Below are positions 2 through 21,040 of a stretch of DNA of 40,878 nucleotides, in pieces. The notes beneath the pieces are model-generated. The model searched no databases, was not told the DNA's origin, and worked only from the letters and a program-made list of their open reading frames with translations. Each line of letters starts with the position of its first letter. Position 1 is the first letter of the stretch. A program made the position numbers and the translations under genes. This DNA comes from Microcaldota archaeon (GTDB lineage: Archaea > Micrarchaeota > Micrarchaeia > Micrarchaeales > CABMGC01), in assembly GCA_027315135.1 (NCBI GenBank), contig DAHUYR010000003.1, forward strand, positions 1 to 40,878, in the 5' to 3' direction.

Positions 2-3000
2 ACCTATGAGCCCTAGCTGGGAAGTACACATGCCTGTTCCGTTTGCAAATATCGGTTCGCACCATTGAGAGTTGCCCCCTGAATTTATAGAGCATGAATC
101 AGATATCTTGTTCTTTCCGTCTGTGCCATATATATTGCAGTTGTATACATTAGGCTGAAGGAGACTGTTTGGAGGGGCGATGCATGATCCAGACGATCCT
201 GTAGATGCGTGGTATGTAGGCAGGTTTGCATTGGTATTTAGCGTTGTTCCTCCATATAGCCAACCAGGTATTGCAAGCTGGCAGTCGCTTGGCACATTTG
301 CTCCAAAGCCGAAGGCGCATAACTGAACGTTTGCAGGATCAGAATATGGACTGTAATCCTTGAATCCTAGGTTTGCATCGTAGTATAGATAGACTATTCC
401 ACCGCTCATTGGAACCTTCTGCGTACCGAAGACAGGAGTATAATTTAGGTTCCCGCTTATAGTAAGAGCTGTCTGGTTTGAATTGCTCCCACTGACCGAT
501 GGTGTAACAGTGACGCCGAGCTGCGTTGCGTTTGCAATGTCAGCGTCTATAGGAAGGTAGATATTGTTGTTGAACCTGTCATTGAACACGAAGACTATTC
601 TGTGGTAACCGTACGGGTCGCCAAGAAGCCCGGGTGTGCCGATACCGTTTCCTGTAAAGTTAAGGAAGGTGTCATTTGCATATATCATGTCTTGATAGAA
701 ATTGAACAGTGTTACTGCGTTGGGGAAGGTCTGCGCATGCGCATACGTAAAGGTATTTGGAACTGTCTTCCCTGAAACTGAAAGAGCAGTTGACAGTGCC
801 GAAAGCAGTGACGTCTGTGTCATGCATACTGCTCCAACACATGGAAGTAGTGAAGTGCCGCCTACGCTTACTGGACTTGTTACAGGATGTATTGACTCGT
901 AATATGGATAACCAAGAATGGAACTAGGATTGCCGACTCCTTGTCTGTTATTTTCTATAGCATATGCTATGGTACGTATGGCATTTGCGGTAAACTGCGT
1001 GTTTGTCTGGTATCCTACCGAGTAGTTTGCATATACTGTACCAAATATCCTGTTCGTGAACAGGTTAAACAGCAGATCTTTCGGTACTATGGTTGCGTTG
1101 AGCATCTGCTGATAGAACGTATCGTTGAATATGTATTTAGCATACGAAGGACCGCCTTCTATAGGCGCTGAAAGCGAAGGCGAGGTATAGGTTTTGCTGA
1201 CTCCTGTTGAGAAGAGCGTGGTGAGAGTATCCCACGTCCTGCTTATATCAAATGGCGGAGGCGTTTGCGGTTTTGTAAAGCACCAGTAGACAGTCGCAGT
1301 AGGAAGCAGCTTGAAGGTTTGTTGCTGTATCTGCTGCTCTGTCTGGAAGGTCTCTTCATAAGGCACCACAGAGTATCCTGAAAGCAAACTAGTTAGCTTT
1401 GTTTGCTCCGCGGATGCAACCTGTCCAGGAGTTACGTTGTTTTTAGTGTTGCCGACAGTCTCAGCTGAATTTATGAATGTAGAATTTCCAAACAGTGCGT
1501 TGTACGCGTTCTCTGTTGTGCTGTAGTTTGTTGTAGGCGAGTTTGTTATGCTGTTTGCTCCGGAGAATGTCGAATAGAGATATTCACTGTATGTAAGTGT
1601 CTTGAGCGAGCCTATGTTTTCGGTGTAGCTGAACGGACTTGAAAGCAGAAGTATAGGGCTTTCGAAAGAGTTTACGTTGTTGTCCTTTATGCAAAGGTTA
1701 GGATTGCTTGCTCCGGAAGGAAGCGATAGTGCGCTGTTGCCATTTGCGTCCATGTAGCATACCGATTGCGCAAGTATCGGAGGCCCTTTTAGGCTCAGGA
1801 ATTGCGTGTAATTCTCAAGGTTGAATCTGGTAAACAGCATTTCAGCATATTGGTTCGCAGTACTGCCTGAACCTGCATTTATATTTTGCGGGGACGGGAA
1901 GAGTATTCCTATAGTGTTGTTGAAGCTTACTGAAAATCCTATTCCTGACAATGGCAGGAATGCGCAACCGTATGTGCCACTTGTCAACAGTACTAATATG
2001 CTTGAACTGCAGTCAAGGCCGCTGAGCGCTGGGCCGACGGGCCAGTAGTTGCTGCTCTTTGAATATGAACTTGGAGGCGCTGTACAAGGATTGGACCATG
2101 AGTCCAGTCCGCACAGGTTTACCACTCCTGACGATGTACCGTCAGATAGGCTGCCTGATATCATCCATCCGAACGGAGGATATGCTCCTGGACTTTGGTA
2201 TCCAGTATAACGCTGATAGTTTGCATTCCCGTTAGTGGTTCCGGTCTGGAACCATATATCATTGTACTTTGTCGGATTTATCGGCACATCCTGACCAGTA
2301 GAGTTTATCACCCTTAGCATGAGCGTGTCGAAATTGGCAGTGCTTGTTGAGGTCCAGCACCATTTTTTAATCAATATGTTTATGTGGAAATTGCAGGTTG
2401 TTCCAAGCCCACCGTACCAGTTGTCAAGCACGTATAAGTAGCCGTTCACTTCCTGTATCGCCACTGGATGGTGGTATGAGGCTTCATCAAGCTGAGTTAT
2501 GCCTGCGTTCTTGAATTTGTTAATTATAGTTGCAACTCCGTTGTTGTTTGTCGCGTTAAGACCGTAGAAACCGCCATTTGCTATAAAATCAGTTATGTTT
2601 ACAGATGGAGTTGGATTTGTAGCAGTAGTTCCTGACACTGTAGATAGTTGGTTAAGCGTGCCTTGATAAGTTATTCCAAGAGGAGCAACGTCAGAGGAAT
2701 ACACCAAATTATATGTACTCAGATACTTCAGCGTCTCTCCAGAGTAGACATATATCTTGCTGCTTTGCTGGCTTGTCACAAAGATCAGTTTACCATCTGG
2801 AGATGCTGCTATTTCTGTAGGTTGTAATGGATTGCCTGAATTATCTTGTGGTGCCTGGCTGCCGCAGTTGCTGTTCGTGCCAGTATTGCAGCTGCTGCTC
2901 GGTATAGTAAGCATTTGTCCAGTAACTGTGTATTTCCCCGCAGCATCATTTATCTTTATTACCCATGGTGATATTGTTCCTGATATTGACATTGTGCCAC

Positions 3001-5680
3001 TGATAAAAATGTCACCGACTGCGTCTGCAGATATGTTCATAGGAGTGAAGGATGTTGATGATATTTGCTGTGGGTTTATGCAGAAGTTCCCATAACGCCC
3101 ATTATAATTGTTTATTGTGCATGACTGTGCCTGCACTGATCCTGAATGCAAGTATGCGTTGTACTGTGCAGATGTCTGGCATACGTAGGTCCCGATATTG
3201 TTAACATAGCATACTTTGGTGTTTGCATTACCATTTACAGATGCAGATACAAGAGACTGTGATATTGGTATCTGGTTTATCACATAGGTGTTTGCGCTCT
3301 GTATTTTTATCAGGCTAGTCCAGTAATTCGCCCAATCTGAAGTCCATACATCTTGGCATGTAACTGATCCGGCACATACGCTTGATGCTGGCTGTGTAGA
3401 AGAAAATGCTGCTGTGTCTTTTGTAGTTAATGTATTTTCTATGTTTGGTATTGCGCCTGGAGGAAGCACGGAATTGTTATAGTAGCCCTGGCTCATCACG
3501 CGCATTACATATATGCTATTTGTCGCGCCAGCATAGCTGGTTATTGGCTGTGCAGGTGTCTGTGATGTTACAGTTATTCCCTGCGCCCATGAGACAAATG
3601 CAGACGCAGCAGCCGAATCACTGCCCTTTGCAGATATTTCATCGCTTATAGTGCCTGATATTGTAGATGATGAAAGGAGAGCGCTTGATGAGATAGCCTG
3701 TATGAGGGGGAACTCAGCAAGCTCCGATGAAACCTGTGCGTTTGTAGTATAATAGCTCATCGGCTCATTGTTCATCAGCCCATACATTATTGCGTTATAC
3801 GTTGACAATGTTACGCCGTTACCAGATACTGTCTGTTTGAACGCAGCTGCAGTTGCCGTGGCACCTTGGCTAGGTGAAGAATATTCTGGAGTGCCATCTG
3901 ATGCAGTACATGGAGATGTAGGCATCTGTATATTTACATTAAGCCCTTGACTCGATCCGCTGGCCTGGATAGGAGTTATGCCAAGCGGATTATTGTAGAT
4001 AAAATCTGCACCGTTGCTATATGATTGTGCTACTGCCGCAAGGAAGGCCTCGTTATTAGTCGTGGCGGGAACACCAAGATTTGACAGTGTTGATTGTATG
4101 AAGTTATTCAGGTTGCTTGTTGAGGAAGGCTGCGTTATCGTGCATACGCCTGTAGAAGCTGCTGTTGAAGATTTGTATTGAGCAGGATTTATCGTGTTTG
4201 CAAGCACGAATACATAATCATTCGGAATTGTAGCTATTGAAAGGGGATCCTTTAGCGAGATCATCGCGTTGGCAGTACCTGAGCCTGCAGTTGCAAGCTG
4301 CTGCTGCGTTGCGCCGTAGCCATACATGTTCGGTTGCCCTATGGCAGGATAAGCTATAGGCTCGCTCTGCATAGTATTCACAATCATGTTTGGCATTGCA
4401 TATGGAATAAGAATGGTTTTACTATTTACGCTGCTGCCGAACTGCCTGTCAAAGAAACACCCTATAGAACCGAAGAGTCCCGTATTGCCTGAATTGCAGT
4501 TTTGCTGATATGTATTTGTATTGTACGAGGCAAAGAATAACTGAGGTGTGCTTATATTTATAGGAATCTCACTAGTAGTAGGGTTGTTGTAGTTGTAAGG
4601 GCTGTATGCAGCATATGACAATTGATCAAGTGTATATAAGTTGTTTCCGAGAGATGGATTCTGCACCTCAAAATTATATAGTATGTAGGGTAGGAAGTTT
4701 GTGTTGAATGTTGCATTTGTTCCAGGATTATTGCCATTTGGAGAGGAAGTTTGATAGACATAAGGAATCTCAGCGTTCTGGATGCTCTGTAGTGTTGTCG
4801 ATATAGTGTATTTGTATGTATATATGCATGCTACTGGATATATCTCAAACGGAGGCGTATACCCTATCCCAGGAGCGACATATGGCAGGTATCCTGCTGG
4901 TACGCTTAGACCGAAGAAGCTTGGTATAGGCAATCCTGCTAGGACAGAGGTTGTTTTTGTTACAGCAGGAGCGCCTGCAAAGTTGGCATATTCTGCGAAC
5001 CATGACCACAAACCGTGCTGAGACTGTGGAGACACTCCTGAGAATATGTTGGAATTTGAATTGTATGCGGTTGATATCGCCCCGGATTCAAGCTGTGGAG
5101 AATATGCAACGTCCTTGAGAACCATGTAGGCAGTATTCTCTGCAGACACATTTGAATAGCCATGTGCAAGATCAAACAGTGAAAATGAATAGTGCTGTGT
5201 GTATACAAGATCGGACAGTAGGAAAACTGATTTTACACCTGCCGAAGCTATTTGACAGCCATCTCCTGCTATGAACGGCTCTGCACCTGTTACAAAATAT
5301 ATATTATCAGTAGGATTTACTGGAGGAGATTTTGGGCATGTTTCCATATACGCTGCATTCTTCTGATTATATGAAACCACTTGCGCAGCTGGAGAGACAT
5401 ACGGATTTCCAGCATATGGCAATGGCACATGGGTGTTGGCACCTACTCCAGCAGTTATTGGGTTGTAGAGAGTGGCAAAAGGGCAAGTGTAAGTTACTGT
5501 AACCTGTGCCCCAGTACTTGTAGGAGTTATGTGCGCGTTTGGGATTCCTAATGAACTGCAAAACTGCACAGCTGCCTGACCAGTAAGACTTGAAATACTG
5601 GCAGCATATGTGGCATGCGCAATTAACGAATATGTAGAAAATAGAAGAATTACAAGGAAGAACAATTTCCCCTTAAACAT
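2..5680 (-). CDS. Giant exported/surface protein, C-terminus outside the window (at least 1893 aa); N-terminal signal peptide and a beta-propeller-like segment
   Basis: Reading the minus strand from ATG at 5680 gives MFKGKLFFLVILLFSTYSLIAHATYA..., a signal-peptide-like start. Frame sampled at about 4.8, 2.8, 0.9 and 0.03 kb is open and protein-like. The segment TEIAASPDGKLIFVTSQQSSKIYVYSGETLKYLS resembles a YncE/NHL-type beta-propeller blade. Absent from the ORF track because it runs off the edge. Confidence 0.85.
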   Translation of the reverse strand, partial: MFKGKLFFLVILLFSTYSLIAHATYAASISSLTGQAAVQFCSSLGIPNAHITPTSTGAQVTVTYTCPFATLYNPITAGVGANTHVPLPYAGNPYVSPAAQVVSYNQKNAAYMETCPKSPPVNPTDNIYFVTGAEPFIAGDGCQIASAGVKSVFLLSDLVYTQHYSFSLFDLAHGYSNVSAENTAYMVLKDVAYSPQLESGAISTAYNSNSNIFSGVSPQSQHGLWSWFAEYANFAGAPAVTKTTSVLAGLPIPSFFGLSVPAGYLPYVAPGIGYTPPFEIYPVACIYTYKYTISTTLQSIQNAEIPYVYQTSSPNGNNPGTNATFNTNFLPYILYNFEVQNPSLGNNLYTLDQLSYAAYSPYNYNNPTTSEIPINISTPQLFFASYNTNTYQQNCNSGNTGLFGSIGCFFDRQFGSSVNSKTILIPYAMPNMIVNTMQSEPIAYPAIGQPNMYGYGATQQQLATAGSGTANAMISLKDPLSIATIPNDYVFVLANTINPAQYKSSTAASTGVCTITQPSSTSNLNNFIQSTLSNLGVPATTNNEAFLAAVAQSYSNGADFIYNNPLGITPIQASGSSQGLNVNIQMPTSPCTASDGTPEYSSPSQGATATAAAFKQTVSGNGVTLSTYNAIMYGLMNNEPMSYYTTNAQVSSELAEFPLIQAISSSALLSSSTISGTISDEISAKGSDSAAASAFVSWAQGITVTSQTPAQPITSYAGATNSIYVMRVMSQGYYNNSVLPPGAIPNIENTLTTKDTAAFSSTQPASSVCAGSVTCQDVWTSDWANYWTSLIKIQSANTYVINQIPISQSLVSASVNGNANTKVCYVNNIGTYVCQTSAQYNAYLHSGSVQAQSCTINNYNGRYGNFCINPQQISSTSFTPMNISADAVGDIFISGTMSISGTISPWVIKINDAAGKYTVTGQMLTIPSSSCNTGTNSNCGSQAPQDNSGNPLQPTEIAASPDGKLIFVTSQQSSKIYVYSGETLKYLSTYNLVYSSDVAPLGITYQGTLNQLSTVSGTTATNPTPSVNITDFIANGGFYGLNATNNNGVATIINKFKNAGITQLDEASYHHPVAIQEVNGYLYVLDNWYGGLGTTCNFHINILIKKWCWTSTSTANFDTLMLRVINSTGQDVPINPTKYNDIWFQTGTTNGNANYQRYTGYQSPGAYPPFGWMISGSLSDGTSSGVVNLCGLDSWSNPCTAPPSSYSKSSNYWPVGPALSGLDCSSSILVLLTSGTYGCAFLPLSGIGFSVSFNNTIGILFPSPQNINAGSGSTANQYAEMLFTRFNLENYTQFLSLKGPPILAQSVCYMDANGNSALSLPSGASNPNLCIKDNNVNSFESPILLLSSPFSYTENIGSLKTLTYSEYLYSTFSGANSITNSPTTNYSTTENAYNALFGNSTFINSAETVGNTKNNVTPGQVASAEQTKLTSLLSGYSVVPYEETFQTEQQIQQQTFKLLPTATVYWCFTKPQTPPPFDISRTWDTLTTLFSTGVSKTYTSPSLSAPIEGGPSYAKYIFNDTFYQQMLNATIVPKDLLFNLFTNRIFGTVYANYSVGYQTNTQFTANAIRTIAYAIENNRQGVGNPSSILGYPYYESIHPVTSPVSVGGTSLLPCVGAVCMTQTSLLSALSTALSVSGKTVPNTFTYAHAQTFPNAVTLFNFYQDMIYANDTFLNFTGNGIGTPGLLGDPYGYHRIVFVFNDRFNNNIYLPIDADIANATQLGVTVTPSVSGSNSNQTALTISGNLNYTPVFGTQKVPMSGGIVYLYYDANLGFKDYSPYSDPANVQLCAFGFGANVPSDCQLAIPGWLYGGTTLNTNANLPTYHASTGSSGSCIAPPNSLLQPNVYNCNIYGTDGKNKISDSCSINSGGNSQWCEPIFANGTGMCTSQLGLIG

Positions 5681-5863
5681 TTTATCAACGCAACCTCATT
5701 ATTAGACGCTGGAGAGATTTATAATAATAGTGTTCTACTGCTGGCATGTGTACTATCTGCTGTTTCTTTCCAGCAAGCCATCTCATTGGTTGCCTAAACA
5801 GAGACCGCAGGCATACGTCCTATTTAAAAGGATGTTTTCTTTCTATTATACAATGTTGATAAA

Positions 5864-6265
5864 ATGGCAAGAAGTGCGAAAAGTGCAAGAAGTGCACCAG
5901 GCATATCTGGATCTGGAAATACAGCAGCACATGCCCTGCAATTCATAGGTAGTCTGATCTTCCTTGGGTTGATCTTTTGGGGAGGAGTAGGTACGCAGTA
6001 CAGCGTTCCATCGTGGAATGCACTTGGCGGTGGCCTTTGGCTCCCGGTATTCTTTTCTCTTGGAGTAATAGCAGCCATAGCTCTCTTCTTTGTTAGCGTA
6101 GCGAACCTAGCTGCACCTGGAGGAGCGTATAGGTATGGAGGAACTCAGCTTGCAGCTGTTGCAGGAATATGTCTTATAGCTCTGACATTCGGCTCATCAG
6201 GCTATTTCTGGGCTGCAATAGTTGGATTCGTGATAGCCATAATAGGCAGCATCTTCACGAGATAA
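5864..6265 (+). CDS. Small membrane protein, about 4 predicted TM segments, unknown function
   Basis: 133-aa ORF with four hydrophobic stretches, followed by a T-rich tract; convergent with aglB. Confidence 0.7.
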   Translation: MARSAKSARSAPGISGSGNTAAHALQFIGSLIFLGLIFWGGVGTQYSVPSWNALGGGLWLPVFFSLGVIAAIALFFVSVANLAAPGGAYRYGGTQLAAVAGICLIALTFGSSGYFWAAIVGFVIAIIGSIFTR

Positions 6266-6276
6266 AAGCAGGATTT

Positions 6277-6313
6277 GCTTTATTTTATTTTTCTTTTTCT
6301 CTTTTTCTTTTAC
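6277..6313 (+). terminator. T-rich tract, probable archaeal transcription terminator
   Basis: Long run of T stretches (tttattttatttttctttttctctttttctttt) just after the stop at 6265. Confidence 0.55.
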
Positions 6314-6325
6314 TTCGTCTTTTTG

Positions 6326-9103
6326 TTAGTGTGAAGCAGTGCTGTTTGTTGTTTTGCCTGTAGATGCATTCAGCGTGTTTGTAGTTATTATGCTGTTTGT
6401 TGTTTTGCTTGCCACGCTGTTTGTTGTTGCAACCGAAGTAGTGCTATTGACTGAATTATGAGTTATTGGTATATTGGTTGTGGTGTTGCTCGCCGAACTT
6501 GTCGTATTGTATAGTATCTTAAAGATCTTCGTATCAGGGTTTGCATATACCAATTGCAATGATGCATTCTTGCTGTCCCATGGACATGATGAACTTGAGC
6601 ATAAGAACAGGAACTTTGCAAGGTTTGTGTCTGCAAGGTAGCTGCTCAGTATGTATGCGCCAGTTATGTTTACCGGATAGCCCTGCCTTGGCACAGTCGA
6701 ATACATCATTACCAGTATGTTGCCGCTTGTCCTGTTATAGTAGGTAGGGTTTACTGCGCTGAAGTTTGCATTGTTTTGATTATAAAAGACCACTGTGGAG
6801 AATGGAGAGATAGCCTGTTGGCCTGTACTCAATGTGTTGTATAGCACATATGCCTTCAGTGCAGATAAAGAATTATTCCTTGGTATATATACGCTGACGT
6901 GTATTCCTTGCGGGTTTGTCAATTGGATAAGCTCTGTAGTGGAATTGAAATTCTCTCCGAACTGGTCAAGAAGCACAGATCCATATAATGAGGAATTAAG
7001 CGTAAGGTTTGATTCGGTGTATATCCCCTGTGTTTCTACCATCCAGGTGTATCTTGCAATAAGGTAATTAGGCTTCCCATTTATGCTGCTTGAGAGGAAC
7101 TGCGGATCTGAACTTGAATTGAAGAGCCATGCTGCAAACGGATCCGCCTTGCTTCCGTTCTGCGAACCTACGCTGTCCGTCACGCTTGTCCTGTTTGCCC
7201 AACCCTCAACTACGCTCCCATCTGGCCATAGTGTTAGGGCAACGCTGTTTGCAGGGGAGTTGTTCTTGAACCACGTCATTGCATTAAGGAACTGTGGATT
7301 TACGTTGTCTGCCTGAGAGAGGCTGTTGGCATATACGCCGTCAGCAGCCATAAGCACAGTTATGAATGCTATTATCAGTATCCCTTCCATTATTAGCGTC
7401 ATGTATAGCATGTGCTTGTCGTGCTTTTCATGCTTGTCATGCTTCGTGTGTCCTTCATGATTCGAGGTTGATGCAAAGTAGATTGCAATAGGATATGCTA
7501 TGCCAAGTATGCAGAACAGCGCCACCGTCTCGTAGTAGCCGAATGTACTGAAGAACGGATACATTGCAACAGATGAGATTATTGACAGTATAAATGCAAC
7601 TATCAGCATTATTTCTATTGTTATCGCAGTGTACTTGAGCTGTGCCTTCGATGCGCCTTTTGTGAAAGACAGGAACCAGTATATAGTATATGCGCTGAAG
7701 ATCGCAAGCGGAATTGATACCAGCGAGTTGAATCTTATTGCATGCACCTGCAGATATGCCGTAACTGCGAAATATGCCATAAGTATGATCATTCCTGGAT
7801 TTATCCCAAACACTGCCTTTGCTTTTCCTTTCATGAAGCCTCCGGAATCAAAGACCTGCATGAATAGGTAGGGCAGCATGAGCAGCATCATTGCTATCCA
7901 TATGCGCGCATCAGATGCAGCTGTCAGTCCAGCTCCGATGTACATTACAATAGACATGGGATTTAGGAATAGAGTATTACCAAAGCTTGCGTAAAGGAAT
8001 GCTTGCGTCGGCGGTTGCAGCTCTTGTATTGTTGCTGCAAAGTTGGAGGTTATTATGAAGCCGTTTCCGATGAATATTTCATATATGAACTGGTTATCAA
8101 CAAGGTATATTATTGCAAATGCGGCAACGATCACGATTAGCGTGATTGCAGCCCTGGAGATTGGGAGAGTCATTAGCGAGTGGAATTTATTTGCATTCTC
8201 TGTAAGATATTTAGCCAAAAGCCATGCTATAATCATAAGCGCTAATAAAGAGATGGTGTTTAGTCCCGTAAAGGTCTGGCGTACAAATACGCCAATAAAC
8301 ACATACAGGTTTACAATTACGTACCATAATACAAATGCAGCTACAAGATACTTGGAGTTTTCAAGTAGGTCCTTCTTCTGGAATATGAAAGCTGCAGATA
8401 TTGTAATAATGATCATTACCATGTACACTGCTGTTGCAAAAGGAGCGCCGTTCCAGACATAGTTACACAGGCTTAGAAATACTGCTGAAAGAATAGCATA
8501 TGCCACCTTCTTCTTGTCGAACTGCATGCTTGATATTTTATGCTGGTGCTTTTCCTCTGCTGGTTCCTTGAGGATCATTGCTGCGAATACAAGTGCCAGA
8601 ATCAGGAATATGGTGACAAAACCATCTCCTCTGTATATAAGTGCGCTTGTCCTTGCAGCATCTCCCATGCTAAGTGCAACGAAAAGCATTGATAGTATGC
8701 CGAATAGCTTGTCCTTTGTTATCATTCTTGAAAGCAGGTATGCTCCTAACACATCAAATATGCCAAAGAGTACAGGAACTAACCTCATCACATCATAATA
8801 ACTTATTCCGAAGAATTGCAGCAGTAGATATGGTAAAAGGGTTACCCAGTAAAGCCCTTCTGGTTCTAGTACAGTAGTTGGGGCTGGATATCCAGATATG
8901 TGTAAAATATGAGGAACTATGAAGTTATTGTTTACTGCTGCTCTTATTACAGAGAAATGATAGAAGCCGTCAGGCTCATAGAAGCCTGCATAGCTGAGCA
9001 TTGTCGTCCTGTATATTACAGTAATATATATGATTACCGCAGTTGCAACAAGGAGGAGTAGAAACTGCCCCCTCTTAGATTCTAGAAACTCTTTAACATC
9101 CAT
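6326..9103 (-). CDS. aglB: Oligosaccharyltransferase, AglB/STT3 family
   Basis: 925 aa, many TM helices; EPDGFYHF resembles the first-loop acidic motif, and LWPDGSVVEGWANRTSVTDSVG sits where WWDYG...NRT..D is expected; S/T/N-rich C-terminal tail. Confidence 0.85.
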   Translation of the reverse strand: MDVKEFLESKRGQFLLLLVATAVIIYITVIYRTTMLSYAGFYEPDGFYHFSVIRAAVNNNFIVPHILHISGYPAPTTVLEPEGLYWVTLLPYLLLQFFGISYYDVMRLVPVLFGIFDVLGAYLLSRMITKDKLFGILSMLFVALSMGDAARTSALIYRGDGFVTIFLILALVFAAMILKEPAEEKHQHKISSMQFDKKKVAYAILSAVFLSLCNYVWNGAPFATAVYMVMIIITISAAFIFQKKDLLENSKYLVAAFVLWYVIVNLYVFIGVFVRQTFTGLNTISLLALMIIAWLLAKYLTENANKFHSLMTLPISRAAITLIVIVAAFAIIYLVDNQFIYEIFIGNGFIITSNFAATIQELQPPTQAFLYASFGNTLFLNPMSIVMYIGAGLTAASDARIWIAMMLLMLPYLFMQVFDSGGFMKGKAKAVFGINPGMIILMAYFAVTAYLQVHAIRFNSLVSIPLAIFSAYTIYWFLSFTKGASKAQLKYTAITIEIMLIVAFILSIISSVAMYPFFSTFGYYETVALFCILGIAYPIAIYFASTSNHEGHTKHDKHEKHDKHMLYMTLIMEGILIIAFITVLMAADGVYANSLSQADNVNPQFLNAMTWFKNNSPANSVALTLWPDGSVVEGWANRTSVTDSVGSQNGSKADPFAAWLFNSSSDPQFLSSSINGKPNYLIARYTWMVETQGIYTESNLTLNSSLYGSVLLDQFGENFNSTTELIQLTNPQGIHVSVYIPRNNSLSALKAYVLYNTLSTGQQAISPFSTVVFYNQNNANFSAVNPTYYNRTSGNILVMMYSTVPRQGYPVNITGAYILSSYLADTNLAKFLFLCSSSSCPWDSKNASLQLVYANPDTKIFKILYNTTSSASNTTTNIPITHNSVNSTTSVATTNSVASKTTNSIITTNTLNASTGKTTNSTASH

Positions 9104-18243: not shown

Positions 18244-18329
18244 GCAGGGGTGGCAGAGTTTGGCCAAATGCGACGGGCTTAGGACCCGTTTCCTTTGTGG
18301 ATGCGAGAGTTCAAATCTCTCCCCCTGCA
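18244..18329 (+). tRNA. tRNA-Leu(UAG)
   Basis: Cloverleaf: GCAGGGG/CCCCUGC acceptor, A73, anticodon stem ACGGG/CCCGU with loop CUUAGGA, long variable arm, T-stem GAGAG/CUCUC. Confidence 0.95.
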
Positions 18330-18490
18330 AATAAAGGCACCTTTAGGCAATGTGACTTCAAGAGGCTGTCATTTGCGTTGCGAAATCAGAGCTGGGCGGC
18401 CCAAGGAAATAACTTATTGTTAGTTCAAATTTTAAGTAATTAGGAGTAGTTTAAAGTAAGTTAGTCAGTAAGAGCGTAATCTTTAAATAC

Positions 18491-18530
18491 TTAAAGTATT
18501 TAAGTAATTATAAGTGTTTATAAGTAATTA
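18491..18530 (+). repeat. 10-bp-phased AT-rich repeat array (iteron/operator-like)
   Basis: ttaaagtatt / taagtaatta / taagtgttta / taagtaatta in consecutive 10-bp units; a further aagtaatta at 18434-18442; palindrome aaatacttaaagtattt overlaps the start. Confidence 0.6.
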
Positions 18531-18546
18531 TAAACTAGGGGATAAT

Positions 18547-19917
18547 ATGGCAATTTCATTTTCAGATATTAAAAAGTGGGTAGCTGATTGGGAAGGGCCA
18601 ACTCTCGAATTTAAGAACAGTGTAGGTAAAAATGTTGGTAGAACCATATGCGCTTTTGCGAATACCAGTGGAGGCGTCATAGTTTTAGGAATTAATCCAG
18701 ACAAACAGTTTACAGGAGTTCAGAATCCAGATAAGGCGTCACAAGATATACATAACATTATAGAAAGTTGTAAACCTAAACCAAATATAGACCAACAATT
18801 CATAAAAGAAGACGGGAAAACATTTATTGCACTGAGTATAACCCAATTTTCTCTGTCACAAGGGGCATGTTTTTTTGAGAGACAGTGTTTTGTTAGACAA
18901 GGCACTACAAACATATGCTTGGACGGCGATGATCTTATAAACTTTCTTAAAAATAGAGCAGTATTAAATTGTGAAGAACAAAGAACAACAGCAAAATTAG
19001 AACAAATAGATACTAAAAAATTAGAAAATTTATTCAAAAGGCGTAATATACCTGAAGAGAACCTAAAAGGAGAAAAGCTAAAGCATATACTTGCCGTACT
19101 TCATATGGCAAATTATAACGGAGAATTTTATATAAAGAACACGGCGCTCATGTTTTTTGCAAATGAACCGGAACTGTTTTTCCCAAACCTTCAGGTTAGA
19201 GTTGTAAAATATTCAAATACTGAGCCGGAATTAGATAAAATAGAACTTGATAGTAGAATCCAAGGTACGATTCCGGAACTTATTGACCAGACATTCAGCC
19301 AAATAACAAAGAGTATAGGTAAACAATTTACTATATCAGGTACGAGGAGAGAAGAAAGTTTCATATACCCTCCAAATGCACTACGCGAAGTTATAACAAA
19401 CGCATTAGGGCACAGGGATTATTTCAATACACAGGGAGTCTTGGTAGAGATATTTCAAGATAAGGTACAGGTAACAAATCCGGGAGGGCTATTACAGGGT
19501 CAAACAATAAAGAACTTCGATAAAACACCACAACATAGAAACCCGATATGCTATCAACTTTTACATGATTTAGGATATGGCGAAGGACTAGGGTTGGGCG
19601 TAAGACTTATACGTAAAACAATGAGGGAATATAGATTACCTGATCCGGAATTCTACTCTCTTGGTAATACATTTAGAGTAGTTCTATACAATAACAGAAG
19701 CACAAAAAAAGTGCAGGCTGTAGAATATGAGAATCCAAGACAAAAGCAAGCACTAGAATACCTAAAAGGAAAACATATGGTTAAGAGTGAAGAATATGCA
19801 AAGATGTTTAGCGTGTCTGTGCCTACAGCTATAAATGATTTGAACGAATTGATAAAACAAGGCAAGGTAAGAAAGATAGGGAAGTTTAGAGGAGTTTATT
19901 ACGAGCTTGATAAGTAG
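18547..19917 (+). CDS. AlbA_2/Schlafen-like domain protein (RecG-related putative transcriptional regulator)
   Basis: EGPTLEFKNSVGKNVGRTICAFANTSGGVIVLGINPDK, PPNALREVITNALGHRDYF, GYGEGLGLGVRLIRKTM, C-terminal HTH. Start placed at ATG 18547 after aggggat; the ORF-track start (18514) lies in the repeat array. Confidence 0.85.
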   Translation: MAISFSDIKKWVADWEGPTLEFKNSVGKNVGRTICAFANTSGGVIVLGINPDKQFTGVQNPDKASQDIHNIIESCKPKPNIDQQFIKEDGKTFIALSITQFSLSQGACFFERQCFVRQGTTNICLDGDDLINFLKNRAVLNCEEQRTTAKLEQIDTKKLENLFKRRNIPEENLKGEKLKHILAVLHMANYNGEFYIKNTALMFFANEPELFFPNLQVRVVKYSNTEPELDKIELDSRIQGTIPELIDQTFSQITKSIGKQFTISGTRREESFIYPPNALREVITNALGHRDYFNTQGVLVEIFQDKVQVTNPGGLLQGQTIKNFDKTPQHRNPICYQLLHDLGYGEGLGLGVRLIRKTMREYRLPDPEFYSLGNTFRVVLYNNRSTKKVQAVEYENPRQKQALEYLKGKHMVKSEEYAKMFSVSVPTAINDLNELIKQGKVRKIGKFRGVYYELDK

Positions 19918-19929
19918 TTGTTGAATTGC

Positions 19930-20643
19930 ATGGATAAAAAATACATACTCGAGGAGATAAAGAGAACGGCAATAGAGAATGGTGGAAAGCCGTTAGGTCA
20001 TCGGAAGTTTGAAAAGGAAACTGGTATAAGATATCACGATTGGTTTGGAAAGTATTGGGCTCGATGGGGAGATGCACTTAAGGAAGCAGGCTTTACGCCA
20101 AACAAACTTACTGGCGCATTCACGGAAGACTTTATTTTAGAAAAACTATGTGAATTAATTCGTGAATTAGAATATTTTCCTTCTGGAGCAGATAGAAGAC
20201 TGAAGAGAAACAAAGATAAAACATTTCCAGCTGAGGGCGTTTTTGAGCGAATAGGTAATCAACGTACTCTCAAATTAAAAGTAGTTGCATATTGCAAACA
20301 GAGAGGAATTGAAGATGTAATCAAGTTATTTCAGATACCCGAAAGCAGTGAAGAAAAAGAGAAAGTTTCCAACGCACCTATTGAAACTGTTGGTATTGTA
20401 TATTTGATAAAATCTGGCAAATACTATAAGATTGGCCGTACAAATTCTGTAGGTAGACGTGAGTATGAAATTAAACTACAATTACCCGAGAAAGAAAAAC
20501 TAATACATGAAATTAAAACAGACGACCCGTCAGGTATAGAGAGCTATTGGCATAATCGATTTGATAAATATCGCGCAAATGGAGAATGGTTTGCTCTTAC
20601 ACAAACAGAAGTTTGTGTTTTTAAACGTAGAAAATTTATGTGA
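19930..20643 (+). CDS. GIY-YIG nuclease (T5orf172/MUG113-like) with N-terminal homing-endonuclease-associated-repeat-like segment
   Basis: GIVYLIKSGKYYKIGRTNSVGRREYEIKLQLP...IESYWHNRFDKYRANGEWFALT; N-terminus GHRKFEKETGIRYHDWFGKYWARWGDALKEAGFTPN. Confidence 0.8.
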   Translation: MDKKYILEEIKRTAIENGGKPLGHRKFEKETGIRYHDWFGKYWARWGDALKEAGFTPNKLTGAFTEDFILEKLCELIRELEYFPSGADRRLKRNKDKTFPAEGVFERIGNQRTLKLKVVAYCKQRGIEDVIKLFQIPESSEEKEKVSNAPIETVGIVYLIKSGKYYKIGRTNSVGRREYEIKLQLPEKEKLIHEIKTDDPSGIESYWHNRFDKYRANGEWFALTQTEVCVFKRRKFM

Positions 20644-20654
20644 ACAATTTTTAG

Positions 20655-20678
20655 GTTCGAATTTTCGTGAATTCGAAC
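20655..20678. repeat. Perfect 9-bp inverted repeat with 6-nt loop
   Basis: gttcgaatt-ttcgtg-aattcgaac, 12 bp after the GIY-YIG stop codon. Confidence 0.8.
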
Positions 20679-20798
20679 GCTAGTGGCTTAAATAGCTTCG
20701 AGACGTTATTATTTGGGTTCAGATGAATGGCTTTAGGCTTAGGGAATTTGTTTGAAAATTGGTGAAAGCTATGGCTTTAAAAAATGACGACAAAACAG

Positions 20799-20858
20799 CA
20801 GGACTTAAGATCCTGTGGTCTAGCACCTTCGTGAGTTCAAATCTCTCCCCCTGCACCA
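20799..20858 (+). pseudogene. tRNA-Leu(UAA) 3' half (anticodon arm to CCA), 5' half missing
   Basis: CAGGA-CUUAAGA-UCCUG anticodon arm, 15-nt long variable arm, T-loop UUCAAAU, CCCCUGC-A plus encoded CCA. No GCAGGGG or D-arm upstream; T-stem has a U-U mismatch. Confidence 0.65.
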
Positions 20859-20953
20859 TTCATTTGGCAGTTATTACGTTTTTCTTGTAAAAGCTTCAAA
20901 TAAACATGTTGTTCATTATTAGAATAGGGATAAGTTGGTAGAGAGGTTTGTAC

Positions 20954-21040
20954 GTGCGGTTCAAAGAAAACCCCGATAGCATGGCCATGCTGTCGAAGCT
21001 AGAAGCTCTGGAAAAGCAGCTCTTCTGTGTCCTCAGATAG
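20954..21040 (+). CDS. Candidate 28-aa microprotein
   Basis: GTG start 6 nt after gagaggt; MRFKENPDSMAMLSKLEALEKQLFCVLR, amphipathic-helix-like. Confidence 0.25.
   Translation: MRFKENPDSMAMLSKLEALEKQLFCVLR

Follow-up and report, generated by a model that had tools for sequence, protein, structure and literature searches.

A cassette of about 2.5 kb, located at a tRNA-Leu(UAG) gene in a Microcaldota archaeon, very probably belongs, as an integrase-deleted and non-autonomous member, to a family of small elements that integrate into the tRNA genes of Micrarchaeota. The window that was analysed comprises 40,878 nucleotides and is the entire contig C24 (DAHUYR010000003.1) of a metagenome-assembled genome (MAG) of 0.81 Mb, which is 88% complete. 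A preliminary description, made from the letters of the window, had proposed an integrative element at the 3' end of a tRNA gene. This proposal is borne out by attachment-site (att)-like borders, by a conserved right end, by the absence of the cassette from five congeners and by homologues that carry an integrase. The same description had called the cassette integrase-less. It is correct that no integrase catalytic domain is present, but the start of such a gene survives at the right border (20771–20855).

A conserved right end and a split integrase gene

A stretch of about 150 bp before the tRNA fragment was found to be common to the window, to contig C9 of the same genome, to the GIY-bearing elements of G052 and G038 and to a third element, on contig C16 of G038. 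It combines a palindrome and a TATA-like box with a second GTTCAGATGAA-like motif and with an ATG whose short open reading frame (ORF) runs into the att core. In the window, this right end occupies positions 20654–20802 of the plus strand. The palindrome, G-GTTCGAATT-TTCGTG-AATTCGAAC (20654–20678), is kept as a palindrome in sister elements, where the letters differ. The TATA-box-like sequence GGCTTAAATAG (20685–20695, plus strand), for which sister elements have TGCTTATATA, may serve as the promoter of the integrase gene. The ATG ORF MALKNDDKTAGLKILWSSTFVSSNLSP (20771–20855, plus strand), which enters the att core, is a remnant of int(N), the first part of the integrase gene, and its equivalent in sister elements is in frame with the catalytic part, int(C).

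A profile of the right end was built from 11 integrase-bearing elements of other genomes only. Free of own-genome sequences, it matched the window at 20654–20799 (E=1.6e-11) and C9 (6e-43), while shuffled windows gave zero matches. A further model, R1, which includes the own copies, matched 62 of the 164 genomes of the order. Sixty right-end contexts were taken, and these, together with the G038 element and the window, yielded 30 loci with both ends resolved. In the resolved loci, the right end is located directly before a tRNA 3' fragment that matches the intact tRNA upstream, the targets being Leu(UAG), Leu(CAG), Glu, Val, Gln, Lys, Arg and Tyr (ARAGORN names). The elements that were read are mostly 1.4–8 kb long.

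When the right end was joined to the left end through the core, an ATG ORF in frame with the integrase was obtained in 14 of the 16 elements in which int(C) is uninterrupted. Across these 14 elements, 28 other frames served as controls, and not one was open from an ATG into the core. One such fusion reads MARNIGVKQLG..LKPLAGSRVQIS up to the junction and LPANPFYDVKAGF beyond it. G052, which was read by hand, obeys the same in-frame rule in the frame that is typical of Leu(UAA)-type ends, and the rule applies alike to Leu, Glu, Val and Gln targets. The design is that of the SSV type, in which integration would part the putative promoter and int(N) of the sister elements from int(C).

Full members of the family carry a tyrosine integrase gene in which the att site lies close to the 5' end. 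In the circle, the right end would supply the promoter and int(N), approximately the first 20 codons, which would be read through the tRNA-derived core into the catalytic int(C) at the left end. Integration at the 3' end of a tRNA gene would regenerate the tRNA, leave int(N) and a tRNA fragment at attR and cut the integrase gene in two. The window retains the right end, int(N) and the att site and has lost the int(C) between the tRNA and the SLFN gene. Excision or further movement of the cassette would depend on an incoming element that provides a related integrase in trans.

The integrase alignment contains the invariant catalytic residues R155, H273-S-L-R276, H300 and Y309. All five members that were tested have PF00589 as the integrase domain, and PF16795 (Phage_integr_3) was absent in all five; the nearest solved structures are those of archaeal XerA (PDB 4a8e/5hxy). 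Because only PF00589 and no PF16795 was found, the family is filed as working like the SSV-type elements and as lying outside their clade. According to a review of 2021 (PMC8371274), the suicidal integrases form a single PF16795 clade of single origin; their known hosts are Sulfolobales, Thermococcales and a small number of other archaea. The suicidal integrases of Micrarchaeota may have an origin separate from the SSV/pTN3 clade. A PF00589/XerA-like set in Micrarchaeota that likewise splits its own gene would mean that the design arose twice or is wider than thought.

Related integrases came almost exclusively from records titled Candidatus Micrarchaeota, and the element integrase had no match in PLSDB, INPHARED or IMG/VR. 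A 17-bp right-end pattern gave three IMG/VR matches, none of which was matched by the right-end profile. In the open-licence literature, no description of such elements was found under Micrarchaeota integrases or mobile elements, or under suicidal integrases in DPANN. The right end marks out a family of Micrarchaeota elements that is apparently undescribed. The mode of integration is already known; the integrase group, the host lineage, the right end and the integrase-less derivatives appear to be new.

Borders of the cassette and its absence from congeners

The intact tRNA-Leu(UAG) gene (18244–18329, plus strand), which forms attL, adjoins serS. Its T-arm and acceptor (18307–18329) are the left copy of the att core and recur exactly, over 23 bp, at 20833–20855 on the same strand; with one mismatch, the repeat extends to 26 bp. 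Both the intact gene and the exact repeat agree with the preliminary description. The right copy exceeds the T-arm, as 56 of the 59 bases at 20798–20856 are shared with the tRNA-Leu(UAA) that the same genome carries on contig C19. This match indicates that the orphan 3' half (20798–20858, plus strand, ending in CCA), which forms attR, belongs to an isoacceptor other than that of the intact neighbour. The orphan half that had been described is real, but it is longer than the T-arm and comes from Leu(UAA). The true Leu(UAA) gene on C19 is complete and has a D-loop intron. The right end of the window is likewise of the Leu(UAA) type, similar to that of G052, yet it is located at Leu(UAG). Since the 3' ends of both isoacceptors share the 23-bp T-arm/acceptor core, entry across isoacceptors is probable.

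The segment between the att copies (18330–20832) has a guanine-plus-cytosine content of 35.5%, compared with 44.1% in the remaining window. The earlier claim of an AT-rich 2.5-kb segment with an AlbA/Schlafen and a GIY-YIG gene was thus upheld, the two genes being intact and assigned by Pfam. On the left, a non-coding stretch (18330–18546) takes the position of int(C) in sister elements.

The junction of serS and tRNA-Leu(UAG) is kept in five congeners, at 91–97% in the stretch before the tRNA. The tRNA itself is identical in four of them and one base off in the fifth, and the homology ends at its 3' end. Different genes follow: a methyltransferase-like gene in G001 and G002, RFC directly in G004 and a GNAT-like gene in G005, where the names methyltransferase and GNAT are the authors' reading of the translations. 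The contig of G003 stops just past the tRNA. Neither cassette gene is present in any of the five. According to the preliminary description, the two genes and both tRNA pieces fixed in the same order in all relatives would speak against a mobile element; this was examined, and the cassette was found to be absent from the five congeners. On the right flank, homology to the congeners does not return until about 21035, close to uppP, which prevents a precise reading of the ancestral empty site. The intervening stretch of about 180 bp (20856–21034) matched neither the congeners nor the left ends of the elements. At the serS locus of another genome, G022 (L090:1575–3179), two tRNA-Leu(UAG)-like copies are located about 1.5 kb apart around one gene.

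Cargo genes and integrase-less relatives

Cargo gene 1 (18547–19917, plus strand; extendable to a GTG at 18514) encodes SLFN_AlbA_2, HATPase_c_4 and HTH_DeoR domains. Cargo gene 2 (19930–20643, plus strand) encodes a GIY-YIG nuclease (MUG113/T5orf172); this identity stands, while the homing-associated N-terminus ascribed to it corresponds only to a sub-threshold match to PF18780 (HNH_repeat, E=0.015). With the own genome counted, relatives of the SLFN gene occur in nine and those of the GIY gene in four of the 164 genomes of the order. The SLFN protein is 79% identical to its copy in G021, and the GIY protein is 85% and 63% identical to those in G038 and G052, respectively. The serS identities for G021 and G038 are 62–63%, below the 79% and 85% of the cargo. 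The closest copies of the cargo are therefore found in other genera or families and are nearer than the host genes, which demonstrates horizontal exchange. The comparison of the GIY gene with its G038 copy gave a pN of 0.076 and a pS of 0.633, which indicates strong purifying selection and a cargo that is being kept. The SLFN/AlbA protein (18514–19917) also matches residues 51–450 of a pAgo (prokaryotic Argonaute)-system profile of PADLOC with 91 bits. This match, to part of the profile, was not read as an assignment to defence.

The SLFN gene of G021 is preceded by tRNA-Glu(UUC) and a tyrosine integrase. The approximately 138 bp before this SLFN gene are homologous to positions 18393–18530 of the window, within the non-coding stretch (local alignment score 168 versus a shuffle maximum of 39; blastn E=8e-32). 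The order in G038 is tRNA-Glu, integrase, ParA-like ATPase, transposase, GIY and tRNA-Glu 3' fragment, and that in G052 is tRNA-Leu(UAA), integrase, HNH protein, GIY and tRNA-Leu 3' fragment. Outside the window, full-length GIY homologues come with an integrase at the tRNA. The SLFN and GIY-YIG genes are cargo, and the nuclease is not the mover.

An integrase is absent in seven of the 30 resolved loci (the window, L235, L241, L245, L265, L269 and L271), so the integrase-less elements constitute a recurrent class. A sensitive profile search of these loci revealed only a short integrase remnant, in L245. Their cargo includes toxin-antitoxin genes of the AbiE, HEPN-MNT and PIN (VapBC-type) kinds and an ADP-ribosylglycohydrolase. 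Two other loci, L239 and L242, contain integrase fragments only. Tandem arrays exist as well, as indicated by extra att copies: in L239 (G017, 832–8844), tRNA-Leu(UAG) is followed by three further copies with AbiE-like or other toxin-antitoxin-like cargo between them, and L245 has two further copies.

The genome of the window holds more structures of this kind. On C43 (L085, 2301 to 1534, minus strand), an intact tRNA-Glu(UUC), a VapB/VapC pair, an orphan tRNA-Glu 3' half and then a frame similar to the start of a tRNA-Glu integrase make up another integrase-less tRNA cassette. On C6 (L086:3146–3996), a left-end remnant follows tRNA-Leu(CAG), and C9 (L084:1–1832) carries a Leu(CAG) 3' fragment with the right end of the element; these are probably one integrase-less element or two copies, because near-identical ORFs are located at the contig ends. 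A decayed integrase fragment beside tRNA-Glu(CUC) (C22:20208–20423; L027/L100) is the sole family integrase relic that the search turned up in this MAG, which yielded no intact copy. In the congener G003, by contrast, the integrase at tRNA-Glu(UUC) is intact.

Several tRNA genes of the same genome were missed or miscalled by ARAGORN. Apparent non-canonical introns are located in the T-loop of Leu-CAA, an Arg and Ala-GGC tRNAs and in the D-loop of Leu-UAA (L037, L040, L042 and L043). A tRNA called with the anticodon UUA (a stop) at C25:13564–13655 (L024) is probably a misread intron-containing tRNA.

Origin of the cassette and likeness to known systems

The preliminary description had offered a helper integrase or a decayed remnant, and both are retained here as refinements of the integrase-deleted reading. 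That an integrase-bearing element was inserted, later lost int(C) and had its cargo kept by selection is given about an even chance. The homology to the region between integrase and SLFN in G021 begins no more than about 65 bp from the tRNA, a spacing that would suit a deletion of int(C), and decayed integrase fragments are common (e.g., C22, L239 and L242). Loss of int(C) should cost little, since a self-splitting integrase is out of use after insertion. The intact right end and int(N) frame and the many integrase-less relatives do not favour such decay. The other refinement is a cassette that arrived already without an integrase, by means of a helper integrase in trans, and that may still be mobilisable; the chance of this is put at somewhat below even. 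Att-flanked integrase-less elements that keep the right end recur with unrelated cargo in the seven loci above, further such structures (C6/C9 and C43) are found in the own genome, and the congener G003 carries an intact integrase at tRNA-Glu. Related integrases can act in trans, and such excision is documented for the SSV-type elements SSV2 and TKV4 (PMC8371274). On the other hand, the own MAG yielded no intact integrase, and the window lacks the left-end sequence that is kept at the own C6 Leu(CAG) site and in the G114 element (L245). The lost left end leans slightly towards a remnant for the window, whereas the recurrent integrase-less elements with intact right ends lean towards satellites as a class.

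Two other explanations account for the borders or the genes in a different way. The preliminary description had the nuclease as a possible mobiliser, and a homing-type element moved by the GIY-YIG protein would agree with the intact domain and the weak HNH_repeat N-terminus. This claim did not hold up: GIY occurs in four of 164 genomes and is absent from most family members, compared with 62 for the right end, and its full-length homologues are accompanied by an integrase at the tRNA. The nuclease does not determine mobility here, since the integrase and att sites explain borders that are tRNA repeats with a conserved right end, and homing is considered very improbable. The 3' half, which holds the whole anticodon arm of tRNA-Leu(UAA), might also be what is left of the decayed member of a tandem pair of tRNA-Leu genes, the genes in between being unrelated, or it might be one part of a split tRNA. 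A split or trans-spliced tRNA-Leu(UAA) is ruled out by the full gene on C19. The sequence before the fragment is the right end found in other genomes, and no congener with both tRNA-Leu genes intact in tandem was seen among the loci read, which makes this explanation more improbable still than homing.

Several points weigh against the integrase-deleted reading. Unlike the own C6, the window showed no int(C) or left-end remnant at 18330–18546, nor was a left-end remnant found beyond attR (from 20856 on), so that the cassette is perhaps no longer a substrate. A clean empty site, which the preliminary description expected in close relatives, was not found in the congeners, where other genes follow the tRNA. 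The loci behind the frame test are related and are therefore not independent trials, and conclusions on helper integrases are limited by the contigs of the MAG. Integrase activity and excision of the cassette are predictions from the sequence.

Several known systems resemble the cassette and its family in part. The SSV-type elements of Sulfolobales and Thermococcales (SSV1/2, pXQ1, pTN3, pT26-2 and TKV) likewise contain att within the integrase gene, which integration, often in a tRNA gene, separates into int(N) and int(C). Integration at a tRNA 3' half, with a regenerated tRNA and a 3' fragment, is found in the window too, whereas their free form has a complete integrase and the window has only int(N). 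They further differ in having PF16795 rather than a PF00589 domain nearest to XerA; the present hosts are Micrarchaeota, most of the elements read are as small as 1.4–8 kb, and many of them have no int(C). The pNOB8-type integrases are also tRNA-targeting recombinases of the PF00589 kind, but their gene stays whole after integration, while here it is interrupted, with int(N) and the putative promoter at the far border. In bacterial cis-mobilisable elements (CIMEs), other integrase-less genomic islands and the pSSVi/pSSVx satellites, attL and attR surround cargo that is presumed to move in trans. The window similarly has att-flanked cargo without its own integrase, and differs in that it retains a conserved right end with the putative promoter and the first codons of an integrase gene. 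The pSSVi satellite is also covered in the review cited above (PMC8371274). Integron cassette arrays resemble L239 only in their working, as cargo is placed in tandem at one docking site; attC and IntI are absent here, the site is a tRNA gene, and the integrase lies inside the element and belongs to another PF00589 group. A 1.8-kb element of Caldiarchaeum is a small recombinase-encoding unit between tRNA-Thr and a tRNA fragment, but that fragment is a 5' piece and is tied to intron gain (PMC3293823).

A broader picture is put forward tentatively and is held to be possible rather than probable. The tRNA genes may be docking sites at which XerA-like self-splitting integrases insert themselves as well as integrase-less cassettes tagged with the right end, which accumulate in tandem, so that genes for toxin-antitoxin systems, defence and nucleases are shuffled from species to species; the cassette in the window would be one such tagged satellite. 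This would provide ultrasmall archaea, with genomes of about 0.8 Mb, with a route to exchange toxin-antitoxin and defence genes. The right end, in turn, is a DNA mark by which integrase-less elements can be searched for, where integrase-based searches would miss them.
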